A DNA stretch of 64,000 bases from Tengunoibacter tsumagoiensis. Lineage in GTDB: Bacteria; Chloroflexota; Ktedonobacteria; Ktedonobacterales; Ktedonobacteraceae. Position numbers and translations under genes: made by a program. Numbering within the stretch: position 1 is the first letter of the stretch; each line of letters begins with the position of its first letter. The notes below the pieces were generated by a model, which was not told where the DNA came from, made no database searches, and worked only from the letters and a program-made list of their open reading frames with translations. Location of the stretch: contig NZ_BIFR01000001.1 of NCBI RefSeq assembly GCF_003967535.1, positions 239,493-303,492 on the forward strand. Reading direction: 5' to 3'. Below, piece after piece: positions 14,234 to 62,207 of the stretch.

Positions 14234-14343
14234 CGTCGCTTACCAGTCCAGATAGCCATTTTCAAACACTCTGCCCAATGGCGAAATCCTTTCTGACGCC
14301 AGACAGTTCTTATTCATCTGGCATCATTCTTATACTCCAGGAT

Positions 14344-14460
14344 GGAAGCAGTCAGACAGCTTCCCTACCAGGTTCTCAATTGGGATGGAAGCAGTTACGC
14401 AGCTTCTCTAGCAGGTTCTCAATGGAACGGAAGCAGTTACGCAGCTTCCCTAGCAGGTTC
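14344..14460 (+). repeat. Three tandem ~42-nt repeats, each a small hairpin, upstream of ilvE
   Basis: Units begin at 14344, 14387 and 14429. Each contains GGAAGCAGT-(C/T)A-(C/G)-CAGCTTCC or a one-base variant, able to fold as GGAAGC/GCTTCC with a ~9-nt loop, followed by CTA-CAGGTTC. The last unit is directly followed by a strong ribosome binding site. The repeats are in frame with ilvE but are not protein-like, and the true ilvE start lies downstream. Confidence 0.85.
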
Positions 14461-24912: not shown

Positions 24913-25662
24913 CTATCGACCGCGAGGGGCGCCGCCACCACGACGATCACCACCGGCGTTCTGACCACCACGGCGGTCTCCACCACCACGACGGTCTCCA
25001 CGCTCACCACCGCGATCGCCACGCTCACGGCGTCCAGCGACTGCGCGGGTCTCACGTGCCTCTTCTTCACGAGCCTGACGGGCAGCAGCGGCTAGCTCAG
25101 CTGCATTTGCAGCAGCCTCGGCGATCTGCGCAGCACGTTTCTTGCCCAGAATGTCAACAACGGTCTTACCGCGGCGAGCAGCCTCAGCATCGGCTGAGCG
25201 GAGTTCGCGCAGACCTTTGACGCACGCCTGTACGGTGTTAGCTTTGTTGGTGCTACCCAGGGTCTTGGTCAGGATGTCGCGGATACCCGCAGCCTCCATG
25301 ACTGCACGAACGGCACCACCAGCGATAACGCCAGTACCAGGGGCGGCTGGCTTCAGCAGAACCTCAGAGGCTCCAAAGTTGGTTGTGACCATATAAGGGA
25401 TGGTCGTACCAGACAGGGGAACTTCAACGAGGTGCTTTTTTGCATCCTCTACAGCTTTACGAATGGCCTCGGTGTATTCGCCAGCTTTGCCAAAACCAAA
25501 GCCGACATGACCATTGCGGTCACCGACAACGACCAGGGCGCGAATGCTGAACCGTCGACCACCTTTGACCACCTTGGAGACGCGGCTAACTTGCACCACG
25601 GTCTCTTCAAGGTGTAGATTTGAAGCATCTATTCTTGCCATATCTTCTGTCTTACTCCTCAT
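24913..25662 (-). CDS. rpsE: 30S ribosomal protein S5 with RGG-rich tail
   Basis: The S5 core (residues ~15-170: [74 protein letters not shown]) acts in decoding fidelity. It continues into an Ala/Glu-rich helix and then a ~45-residue Arg-Gly-Asp tail with repeated RGG motifs; 249 residues against ~165 normally. Starts at 25662 (MRSKTEDM) and 25641 (MARIDAS) are both possible; neither has a well-spaced ribosome binding site. Confidence 0.97.
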
Positions 25663-30259: not shown

Positions 30260-31390
30260 CTACTCGCTCTGAGCGGCCCCGGTATTACCGTTATCAGTCG
30301 TTGGCGTCGGCTGGGTCACTTCTACCTGGTTCACTGGAGCTGCGTTCGTAGCTTCAGTGCTGGCTGGTGCCTGCTCAGGACGTGGCTGACGTGGTGGCCG
30401 ATCTCCCTGTGGACGATCTCCCTGTGGCCGAGGTGGACGAGGTCCGCGATCTCCACCCTGTGGGCGGGGTCCACGATCTCCACCTTGCGGTCGGTCTCCC
30501 TGGGGCCGAGGTGGGCGAGGTCCGCGATCTCCACCCTGTGGGCGGGGTCCACGATCTCCACCTTGCGGTCGGTCTCCCTGGGGCCGAGGTGGACGAGGTC
30601 CACGATCTCCGCCCTGCGGACGCTCACCGCGCTGCTGGCCTCCATCACGACGTCGATCACCACCGCGATCGCTACGCTCGCCTCCACGGCGATCGGTGCG
30701 CTCACGGGGAGCAAATGTCTGCTGTGCTTCTGGCTGCTCACCTGGCTCACGACGTTTGTTGGGGAGAATATCGCCCTTATAAATCCAGACTTTAATACCG
30801 ATGACACCAAATGTGGTGTGGGCCTCGGCCAGACCATAATCAATGTCGGCGCGCAGAGTCTGCAAGGGAACTGACCCCTCAACCTCTTTTTCGGTACGAG
30901 CAATTTCTGCTCCACCAACACGACCACCAACGATGATTTTAATACCCTTCGCATTGGAGCGCATGGCCTTCTGGACAGCCTGTTTCATCGCGCGGCGGAA
31001 GGAGACACGTTTCTCCAACTGCTCGGCAATGCTACGGCCTACCAGGACAGCGTCCAGCTCGGGCTGGCGGATCTCATTGATATCCATCCGCACCCGGCGC
31101 TTCTTGGTCTTGGTCTCTAAGAGGGCGCGAAGGCGATCGACCTTCTCACCGTTCTTACCAATCACAATACCAGGTTTCGCTGTAAACACTTTGACCAGTA
31201 CCTGGTCTGCGGCGGCGCGCTCAATCTCAATGCGTGAGACTGAAGCGTTGGCTAACTCTTTATTGATAATCTTGCGGATCTGAAGATCCTCAGCAAAAAT
31301 ATCCTTATAATCACGCTCGGCATACCAGCGAGACTGCCAGCCTTTTACCACGCCGAGTCTGAACCCATTGGGATGTACTTTGTGTCCCAA
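30260..31390 (-). CDS. rpsC: 30S ribosomal protein S3 with long Arg/Gly/Pro-rich repeat tail
   Basis: S3 lies at the mRNA entry site. Residues 1-~215 are a complete S3: [22 protein letters not shown] domain with [15 protein letters not shown] (GxxG loop), [13 protein letters not shown] and [18 protein letters not shown]. The next ~160 residues are a low-complexity tail of repeated DRGPRP, PQGGDR and RPQGDR blocks, ending with Pro, Ala, Thr and Asn-rich sequence; total 376 against ~210-240. RGG-like tails often bind RNA, so a role in mRNA or assembly is possible but untested. Codon frame is kept throughout, so this is not a frameshift. Confidence 0.97.
30424..30605 (-). repeat. 78-bp in-frame tandem repeat coding the S3 tail
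   Basis: The sequence beginning G(T/G)GGCCGAGG recurs at 30424, 30502 and 30580: exact 78-bp spacing, two full copies and the start of a third, differing at only a few positions. 78 bp equals 26 codons, so copy-number change would keep frame. Smaller related units (GATCTCCACC with GCGGGG blocks) lie within each copy. Confidence 0.93.
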
Positions 31391-59599: not shown

Positions 59600-60157
59600 T
59601 TACTTGTTCCCTACACTAACTTTGACGCGAGCAGGGCGTAGCGTCTCTTCACCCAGGGTATATCCTTTACGAACCTCTTCCAGAATGGTTCCATCTGGCT
59701 TGTCGCTATTCTCAATGGCTTCGATGGCTTCATGGAGGTACGGGTTAAAGGTCTCACCAACGCTTGTGACGGGCGTAAGTCCCTCGCCGCGCAGGACTTC
59801 GTTCATCTGCCACTGCAACATGCGAAGTGTATGCTGAAGAGCCTGCTTGTCCATCGTGTCCTGGAAGGCCAGGGCGCGCTCAACGTTATCCATGACTTCA
59901 AGAAGGTTGTTAAACAAGGCCTTTTTCTGCTGCTGGACACGATCCGAGACGAGCCGTTCCTGACGTTTACGGAAATTATCCCAGTCGGCACGTTCGCGCA
60001 GATATTTATTCCAGTTGTCTGTGGCCTCCTTGCGTGCCTGGCCCAATTGAGTTTCCAGTTCAGCTACGCGTGCGTCCTTTGACTCGCTGGTCGCATTCGT
60101 GGGCTGTTCGCTGGCGGTCTGCTCGACGTTAGACTTATCCTGCTGCTCTTCTTTCAC
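59600..60157 (-). CDS. grpE: Nucleotide exchange factor GrpE
   Basis: 185 residues: polar N-terminus, long coiled coil (ELETQLGQARKEATDNWNKYLRERADWDNFRKR), then the beta domain with ALEAIEN-like EAIEAIENSDKPDGTILEEVRKGYTLGEETLRPARVKVS. Releases ADP from DnaK. GTG start at 60157 has AAGGAG nine bases upstream. First gene of the heat-shock operon; dnaK is not adjacent. Confidence 0.96.
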   Translation of the reverse strand: MKEEQQDKSNVEQTASEQPTNATSESKDARVAELETQLGQARKEATDNWNKYLRERADWDNFRKRQERLVSDRVQQQKKALFNNLLEVMDNVERALAFQDTMDKQALQHTLRMLQWQMNEVLRGEGLTPVTSVGETFNPYLHEAIEAIENSDKPDGTILEEVRKGYTLGEETLRPARVKVSVGNK

Positions 60158-60229: not shown

Positions 60230-60258
60230 AGTATAAAACTTGAGTCCCATGGTGTCAA
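60230..60258 (-). promoter_or_regulatory. Promoter of grpE-dnaJ-hspR
   Basis: Minus strand TTGACA, 17-nt spacer, TATACT: perfect -35 and five of six -10 bases. Start near 60223, leader ~65 nt. The spacer is largely occupied by the HAIR-like operator. Confidence 0.9.
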
Positions 60259-60312: not shown

Positions 60313-61357
60313 CAGGTAGGGCGCCTCTTTCCTCTGATCCCCACTCCGCTCTGTGAGCCCCTCCATGGCTAATGGGCAATGGGAAAACGGGAAAAAATGT
60401 TATGGGGGCGACCATAGCGGAGCTTCACGTTTCGGAAGGAGACGCCCTACTTTTCTTGTCATTTATTGCTCTATTTCACGTATAAAATGATGTCAAGTAG
60501 GGAAAGCCGCTTGTCTCTTTCCTCTGGTCCCACTCCGCTCTGTGAGCCCCTCCATAACTTAACTTGAAAATAAGTTATGGAGGGGCTCACAGAGCGGAGC
60601 TTCACGTTCAGGAAGGAGACGCTCTACTTGTATTGTCATATTACGCTCTATTTCACATATAAAACATTTTAAAGCAGGGAAAGCCGCTTGCCTCTTTCCT
60701 CTGTTCCCACTCCACAATGTGAACCCCTCCATGGCTAATGGGAAAGGATGCTATGGTGGGGCTGGAATTGTGGAGCTTCACGTTGTGGAAGGAGACGCCC
60801 TACTTTTTTATCATTTATTGATCTGTTTTGAATATAAAATAATGTAAAGTAGGGAAAGTCGCTTGTCTCTTTCCTCTGTTCCCTCTCCGCTCTGTGAGCC
60901 CCTCCATAACTGAATTGGAAAACGGGAAATAGGAAAGAATGTTATGGAGGGGCGACCATTGCGGAGCTTCACGTTTCGGAAGGAGACAAGCGACCTTCCC
61001 TACTTGTTTTATCATTTATTGATCTATTTTGAATATAAAATAATGCCAAGTAGGGAAAGCCGCTTGTCTCTTTCCTCTGTTCCCACTCCGCTGTGTGAGC
61101 CCCTCCATAACTGAATTGGAAAACGGGAAATGGGAAAGAATGTTATGGAGGGGCGACCATGGTGGAGCTTCACGATTAGGAAGGAGACGCCCTACTTGTT
61201 TTATTATTTACCACCTGAAAACGTGTATTATGCAATGTCAAGTAGGGCGTCTCTTTCCTCTGTTCCCACTCCGCTGTGTGAGCCCCTCCATGGCTGAATT
61301 GGAAAACGGGACATGGGTAATGATGATATGGAGGGGCTGGCATGGCGGAGCTTCACG
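60313..61357. repeat. Tandem array of six long hairpin units
   Basis: Units at about 60315-60452, 60495-60629, 60672-60805, 60847-61005, 61048-61197 and 61240-61357. Each has outer arms AAGTAGGG...(G)TCTCTTTCC and GGAAGGAGAC...CCTACTT, and an inner stem CTCCGC...CCCCTCCAT with ATGGAGGGG...GCGGAG. Units are joined by similar AT-rich spacers of ~40 nt (TTTTATCATTTATTGATCT type). In unit 2 the inner stem is a perfect 29 bp (60533-60561 with 60571-60599). Unit 3 changes both sides of the stem together (CTCCACAAT/ATTGTGGAG). Unit 6 lacks its last arm and runs into scpA. No coding function seen. Confidence 0.95.
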
Positions 61358-62207
61358 AAAGTTCTTCCTCTAGCCCGGTCTCGTTCCAGAGGGGGCCTCG
61401 CTCGAGCATCAGGGGGCCCATCGGGTCCTCCTGAGAGACTTCGATCCGCTGCCACTTCCACATCTCCAGGACGGCGATAAAGGTAACGATAATGACTATT
61501 CTTGAGCTTTCGTCGGCCAGGATCTCAGAGAGGAGGACAGAGGAGCGACTCTGAAGATGAAGCCGGATTGCTGCGATACATTCACTGACCCTCACTTTTC
61601 GCGTGGGCATCAGCTCTGTTCCAGCCACGTTCTCTTTTGTCTGGAGCTCTAATAAACGCTGAAAAGCTCTCGCCAGAGACGACGCCTCCATGCCAACTAA
61701 TGTGGGTGGCGTCCAGGCGAGCTGGGCCTCAATCCCCGCCAGCAGGCCCGAACGAGCATGCGTCTGCAAACCTGACTCCTCATGCTTACGCAACACGTGA
61801 GCAATCTCTTTAGTGAGCTTGTATTCAATGAGGTGGCGCTGAAGCTCTTCAGCCATCTCGACGGCTGTATTCATCTCTTCGTTCTCTTCCGCTCTGGGGG
61901 CTTGCGGTAAGAGGCTCTGTGACTTAATAAACAGGAGGCGAGCAGCAATGGAGACAAATGACGCCATATTCGCTAGCGGCATCTGCCCATCCTCCAGACC
62001 CTGGAGATACGCAACATACTGATCAGTAACCTCCATAAGGGAGATCAGAGTAATCTCCATCTGCCGCTTCTCAATGAGATGTAAGAGGAGATCCAGCGGG
62101 CCCTCAAAGACGGGAAGATGGACAATATAGCGTGCCTGTTGCGCTGGCTCTTCGGTGATTGACGCAGCAGGAATCAGAGGTTCTAGCATACCATTATGAT
62201 ACCTCAT
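61353..62207 (-). CDS. scpA: Segregation and condensation protein A
   Basis: Kleisin subunit of the SMC-ScpAB complex for chromosome segregation. 284 residues: FEGPLDLLLHLIEKRQMEITLISLMEVTDQYVAYL is diagnostic, with LANMASFVSIAARLLFIKSQSLLP and a C-terminal winged helix (VIIVTFIAVLEMWKWQRIEVSQEDPMGPL). Starts at 62207 or 62189 are both possible. Overlaps the HD-hydrolase gene by 14 nt. The stop codon TGA (61353-61355) falls inside the conserved GGAGCTTCACG of the last array unit. scpB is not next to it. Confidence 0.95.
   Translation of the reverse strand: MRYHNGMLEPLIPAASITEEPAQQARYIVHLPVFEGPLDLLLHLIEKRQMEITLISLMEVTDQYVAYLQGLEDGQMPLANMASFVSIAARLLFIKSQSLLPQAPRAEENEEMNTAVEMAEELQRHLIEYKLTKEIAHVLRKHEESGLQTHARSGLLAGIEAQLAWTPPTLVGMEASSLARAFQRLLELQTKENVAGTELMPTRKVRVSECIAAIRLHLQSRSSVLLSEILADESSRIVIIVTFIAVLEMWKWQRIEVSQEDPMGPLMLERGPLWNETGLEEELS

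Follow-up and report, generated by a model that had tools for sequence, protein, structure and literature searches.

A six-unit repeat array between scpA and grpE of Tengunoibacter tsumagoiensis is very probably a BIME built from GTAG-type REPs

A REP of the GTAG super-family is, by definition, a short imperfect palindrome preceded by the tetranucleotide GTAG, and REPs combine into larger elements: regularly spaced REPs of alternating orientation form a BIME, and an inverted REP doublet forms a REPIN, which can occur in tandem clusters (PMC3733652, PMC2817692, PMC3116915). Published REPs are located downstream of genes (PMC3733652). The BIME-2 of E. coli binds DNA gyrase (PMC2817692), and Pseudomonas fluorescens SBW25 carries 16 tandem REPIN clusters, which reach more than 700 bp (PMC3116915). 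Among the GTAG families, the clustered GTAG-23 of Thermomicrobium roseum is phylogenetically nearest to the genome considered here, and GTAG-15 of A. variabilis has 9–15-nt loops and forms dimers within long palindromes (PMC3733652).

In the window (the whole 64,000-nucleotide stretch of Tengunoibacter tsumagoiensis DNA that we analyzed), nhmmer, TRF, and a repeat search delimited a six-unit array between scpA and grpE at 60313–61358. A preliminary description, made from the letters of the window, had reported six units here, and the array is far beyond chance: none of 100 shuffles reached 8 copies of AAGTAGGG or 13 of CCCCTCCATNNCT. Fold z-scores of units were −9.7 and −8.8. We found the architecture of the units much as it had been described, including the perfect 29-bp inner stem of unit 2, the CTCCACAAT/ATTGTGGAG change on both sides of unit 3, and short and long outer arms, of which unit 4 alone has the long form on both sides. 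The short arm proved to be a REP minus 9 nt, with one stem side gone; among the six units, only unit 4 contains two complete REPs. A protein-coding repeat was rejected, as the module lengths (175–201 and others) are not divisible by three. The features are as follows.

59600–60157, minus strand: grpE (Pfam PF01025)
60230–60258, minus strand: grpE promoter-like site, TTGACA-17-TATACT, between the array and grpE (sequence scan)
60313–61358, plus strand: whole BIME-like array, six REPIN units head to tail in steps of 175–201 bp (nhmmer, TRF, repeat search)
60316–60332, plus strand: unit 1 left REP, short form GTAGGGCGCCTCTTTCC, stem side lost by a 9-nt deletion
60434–60450, minus strand: unit 1 right REP, short form
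60451–60496, no strand: tail-tail linker, 46 bp, A/T-rich, GTAG ends inward
60497–60522, plus strand: unit 2 left REP, full form, GTAG-GGAAAG-CCGCTTGTCT-CTTTCC
60533–60599, plus strand: unit 2 core, perfect 29-bp inner stem (sides 60533–60561 and 60571–60599) and 9-nt loop
60611–60627, minus strand: unit 2 right REP, short form
60674–60699, plus strand: unit 3 left REP, full length but degenerate (GCAG)
60710–60775, plus strand: unit 3 core, with the CTCCACAAT/ATTGTGGAG arms
60787–60803, minus strand: unit 3 right REP, short form
60849–60874, plus strand: unit 4 left REP, full form
60875–60977, no strand: unit 4 inter-REP core, 103 bp, GTAG ends outward (head-head)
60978–61003, minus strand: unit 4 right REP, full form, GTAG-GGAAGG-TCGCTTGTCT-CCTTCC
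61004–61049, no strand: tail-tail linker, 46 bp
61050–61075, plus strand: unit 5 left REP, full form
61179–61195, minus strand: unit 5 right REP, short form
61242–61258, plus strand: unit 6 left REP, short form; the right REP is absent from this unit
61353–62207, minus strand: scpA (Pfam PF02616)

The stop codon of scpA falls inside the final bases of the array (the GTGAAGCTCC edge). At the other end, a stretch resembling TTGACA...TATACT/TATAAT precedes grpE in the window and, at the same place, in the three relatives inspected, and we therefore position the array between the end of scpA and the putative grpE promoter. The order of the two genes is kept in eight relatives, with inter-alignment gaps of 175–431 bp and one of 1298 bp. 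No such REP was found in the scpA–grpE gap of any of the eight; these syntenic relatives are all from other genera, so the insertion event itself is not visible at this locus. The 1298-bp gap (genome G004, locus L139) houses a gene rather than an array.

The array is not a purely local duplication, a possibility raised in the preliminary description: the 26-nt outer arm has 346 copies in the genome at up to three mismatches (control pattern, 0). BLASTN gave 337 matches in this genome (7.70 Mb, two contigs), and the 14-mer GCTTGTCTCTTTCC has 185 exact copies (reversed control, 0); past the listed places, such genome-wide counts are pattern totals. The family is unevenly distributed along the chromosome. 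All 100 matches listed of the 185 exact arm sites lie in the first 1.92 Mb of contig C1, the first quarter of the genome. In about 0.8 Mb of own-genome sequence, sampled around arrays, a profile search assigned 179 units to 49 groups, of which 44 contain two units or more; the genome thus has at least 49 arrays or singles. The spacing from unit to unit was almost always 41–43 bp, at times 31–33 or 51–52 bp. In most arrays the first and last units are truncated or degenerate, and single arms also occur. Cores are 85% identical within an array and 74% identical between arrays; arm identity between arrays is 96% on the left and 92% on the right, values somewhat inflated because full-length units were picked by matches that include the arms. 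Examination of the array flanks revealed long similar stretches, such as CTTTGCTGGTTCGTGCAGAAGCGGGGAAGCG, common to several arrays (L034, L044, L054, L055, and L112), which suggests that some arrays were copied along with adjacent DNA.

Each outer arm reads, from 5′ to 3′, GTAG, stem, NNGCTTGTCT, stem; since this is GTAG plus a short imperfect palindrome, we identify the arm as a GTAG-type REP. The tag stands unpaired at the end of an imperfect palindrome (published length, 20–40 bp), here with a 6-bp stem and a 10-nt loop, and the predicted single-stranded DNA folds of two REPs from this genome likewise left GTAG unpaired beside a stem of 6 and a loop of 10. The REPs are numerous, dispersed, and extragenic, with arrays overlapping predicted ORFs by 94 bp at most. 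As in BIMEs, orientation switches from one REP to the next (gap below 130 bp) in 286 of 288 neighboring pairs, and the largest clusters contain 13 REPs. The tail-tail gap, with the GTAG ends inward, measures 45–46 bp in 132 of 153 instances, and the others are mostly 35–37 or 55 bp; the head-head gap, with the GTAG ends outward, falls into classes of 87–89, 94–96, and 101–105 bp. Arrays also favor gene 3′ ends: 34 of 50 facing 3′ ends lie within 100 bp of an array as against 6 of 38 facing 5′ ends (p = 1.2e-6), and array neighbors are convergent or divergent in a ratio of 12:6 as against 54:77 in the background (p = 0.047), in statistics that refer to regions sampled around arrays, with genes called by a simple codon-based method. 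The direction of the array relative to the gene 3′ end showed no preference (19 same, 17 opposite). Because REP anatomy, alternation, clustering, and 3′-end bias agree with the published definitions (PMC3733652, PMC2817692, PMC3116915, PMC8266576), we conclude that the array is very probably a BIME in which REPINs form a tandem cluster, putatively amplified by a REP-associated tyrosine transposase (RAYT) and now orphaned. The long cores, each with a palindrome of its own, speak against this reading. The earlier statement that no named class fits thus gives way to GTAG-type REPs in a BIME or tandem REPIN cluster.

The REP family looks new, although the element itself is of a known kind; the comparison with GTAG-1 to GTAG-24, GTAG-23 included, covered their published descriptions. 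The exact arm pattern matched no named genome record among 84,980 species, a search from which the own or a very near genome was possibly excluded. The family has in common with the super-family of Di Nocera et al. 2013 (PMC3733652) the GTAG tag, the 6-bp stem, complementary stem variants, and a downstream location. It resembles E. coli BIME-2, with its alternating Y and Z2 REPs, in forming extragenic tandem arrays of alternating GTAG-tagged REPs with two alternating linkers, but the REP sequence is different, one linker is about 88–104 bp long with its own palindrome, and no RAYT was detected. As in the REPIN clusters of P. fluorescens SBW25, REP doublets are repeated head to tail with their flanks; here, however, such arrays predominate, with at least 49 loci and clusters of up to 13 REPs, and again no RAYT was detected. 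Three traits are unusual: the modules measure about 200 bp, the 45–46-bp linker changes in length by one helical turn, and cores 74% alike sit between arms that are 96% alike.

The preliminary description had presented the units as covarying hairpins, as expected if the folded form is selected. We aligned 91 units and compared paired positions with shuffled halves. In the inner stem, 83.3% of cells were paired as against 83.8% after shuffling, and the covariation score was 0.128 as against 0.131; for the whole nested structure, 87.3% were paired as against 87.6%, and nested-stem covariation scores were at or under the shuffled means. The inner palindrome is real (slid controls gave 41–46%), yet its halves do not vary jointly, and unit 3, with its double change, stands alone. 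These shuffles reject a nested-stem RNA, and with inner-stem covariation absent the argument for a selected fold fails. The true covariation is in the 6-bp stem inside each outer arm, straight after GTAG. The most strongly coupled pair of columns in the unit (134–151; A-T in 58, C-G in 22) lies within the right arm and belongs to a local stem, GGMAGG-N10-CCTKCC. Left arms have the stem GGAAAG/CTTTCC and right arms GGAAGG/CCTTCC or GGCAGG/CCTGCC; the last variant breaks two arm-to-arm pairs and leaves the local stem pairs intact. Across 35 distinct REPs from T. tsumagoiensis and a relative (G009, described below), the stem was 95.7% paired as against 84.0% after shuffling, with a covariation score of 0.324 as against 0.122 (0 of 500 shuffles for each), and three pairs were altered on both sides; the result is weighted by distinct sequences from two genomes and reflects few independent events. 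The compensated variants GGAAAG, GGAAGG, GGCAGG, and GGACAG imply at least three compensations.

BLASTN found no match in 40 relatives. The covariance-model search that had been proposed for the class did extend the family, to one other genome of 47, while the remaining genomes were unmatched: G009, of the same family and another genus (best E 1e-7), has the REP GTAG-GGACAG-TGGCTTGTCC-CTGTCC, singly or in inverted pairs, in 54 copies (control, 0). RAYTs (NF047646) are found elsewhere in the class, bordered by inverted GTAG hairpins in G013, G017, and G043; in G013, which belongs to the same family as T. tsumagoiensis, the flanking hairpin has 71 genome copies. The REPs of these REPtrons likewise consist of GTAG and then a palindrome, and a G013 variant, GTAGGGGCGAGGCTTGCCCTCGCCC, has GTAGGG...GGCTTG in common with ours, but their stem and loop sequences are unlike those of T. 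tsumagoiensis, in which no cognate RAYT was detected. Neither Pfam PF01797 nor NCBIfam NF047646 nor a RAYT of the class as query detected a RAYT in T. tsumagoiensis or G009, and no RAYT flanked by its cognate REPs, as in a REPtron, was detected in either genome. Since none was detected, RAYT mobilization is deduced from the anatomy and the relatives, and the arrays are orphan at present. Both genomes contain Y1 genes, of IS200/IS605 type where tested with NCBIfam; near those of T. tsumagoiensis no such REP was found. In G009, about 190 bp separate a degenerate REP, ATAGGGACAATGGCTTGTCCCTGTCC (L081:2119–2144), from an IS200/IS605 tnpA gene; a link between that Y1 transposase and the repeat is possible, as is coincidence. 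Contigs (L086–L089) of an uncultured Chthonomonas MAG, from a different phylum, contain the G009-type arm GTAGGGACAGTGGCTTGTCCCTGTCC as well.

We weighed three other explanations. The arrays could be DNA elements selected by the host, functional whatever their origin, as sites for gyrase, IHF/HU, or another chromosome-organizing protein. The near-uniform arms around diverged cores, with no RAYT detected, are consistent with this, as is a linker of 45–46 bp whose exceptions mostly differ by one helical turn (35–37 and 55), and the binding of gyrase by E. coli BIME-2 (PMC2817692) offers a precedent. However, a recent spread would likewise leave the arms alike, the selection of full-length units inflates arm identity, and 41 of 363 REPs are tolerated as short forms that have no stem; we regard host selection as unlikely. 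We consider it highly improbable that the array is a set of tandem small-RNA genes, with the 42-bp spacer as promoter and the 159-bp unit as a long hairpin transcript. Single units do fold very strongly, and 63 of 92 unique spacers carry a TATAAA/TATNAT-like hexamer (4 or more of 6 positions matching) at a constant distance ahead of AAGTAGGG; but the spacer is 72% A+T and TATAAT is often matched at other offsets too, promoter-like and terminator-like sites in a scan of the scpA–grpE region are at chance level, the inner stem does not covary, and the alternating inverted order is what BIMEs predict. Rfam, which the preliminary description had named as a check, offered no fitting family: only generic miRNA-hairpin models appeared, none scoring above the gathering cut-off, and nothing appeared over arrays at other loci. 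An ordinary MITE with 26–28-bp terminal inverted repeats and a DDE transposase, made tandem by nested insertion, would explain the inverted arms at both unit ends and the many copies, but is very hard to credit given a stem that covaries within the arm rather than arm to arm (as the GGCAGG/CCTGCC variant illustrates), the GTAG tag, the fixed tail-tail linker, strict alternation up to 13 copies, and the existence of single arms. Of the three guesses in the preliminary description, that of a MITE-like family multiplying in place came closest.

In each REPIN, two REPs enclose a core of about 88–104 bp with its own palindrome, and a 45–46-bp A/T-rich linker joins one REPIN to the next. On the BIME reading, a Y1 (HUH) RAYT would once have recognized the REP hairpins in single-stranded form and placed new copies, by preference close behind the ends of genes. 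The module may then have been amplified on the spot, and made partly uniform, by rolling replication or unequal recombination. The RAYT gene would later have been lost from this genome, with the orphan arrays remaining. We infer that the array is a transposase-derived repeat, immobile at present. For the host it would most likely be a passive 3′-flanking element; by analogy with E. coli, it possibly has supercoiling or RNA 3′-end effects, which here would touch scpA mRNA or local supercoiling. It is quite improbable, in our estimate, that the REP arrays outlived their transposase and are kept by the host, with the 26-nt REP plus the tail-tail linker, phased by helical turns, as a putative site for a chromosome-organizing or transcription-ending factor; if that were true, dozens of gene ends would bear a domesticated array. 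The REP/BIME family described here is large and orphan, and comes from a class that has been little studied; with near-uniform REPs, diverged inter-REP DNA, and no RAYT detected, it makes testable the question of whether REPs are kept by the transposase or by the host. It also illustrates that "covariation", however striking in six units, can disappear at the scale of the whole family, with the real covariation elsewhere.

We rejected the view of the core as a hairpin dispersed on its own, since the inner hairpin occurred in one copy outside arrays in the 819 kb searched: a lone CCCCTCCATAGCC...AGCTGTGGAGGGG hairpin at 868–909 of the window, which has no REPs, lies between two convergent ORFs, and may be a relic or a terminator. 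The window contains further tandem repeats at 14340–14460 (42 bp, 2.9 copies), 24948–25028 (18/21 bp, 3 copies), and 30394–30616 (78 bp, 2.6 copies). Elsewhere, at L058:1513–2036, a T-box leader and two tRNA matches lie about 8 kb from an array.
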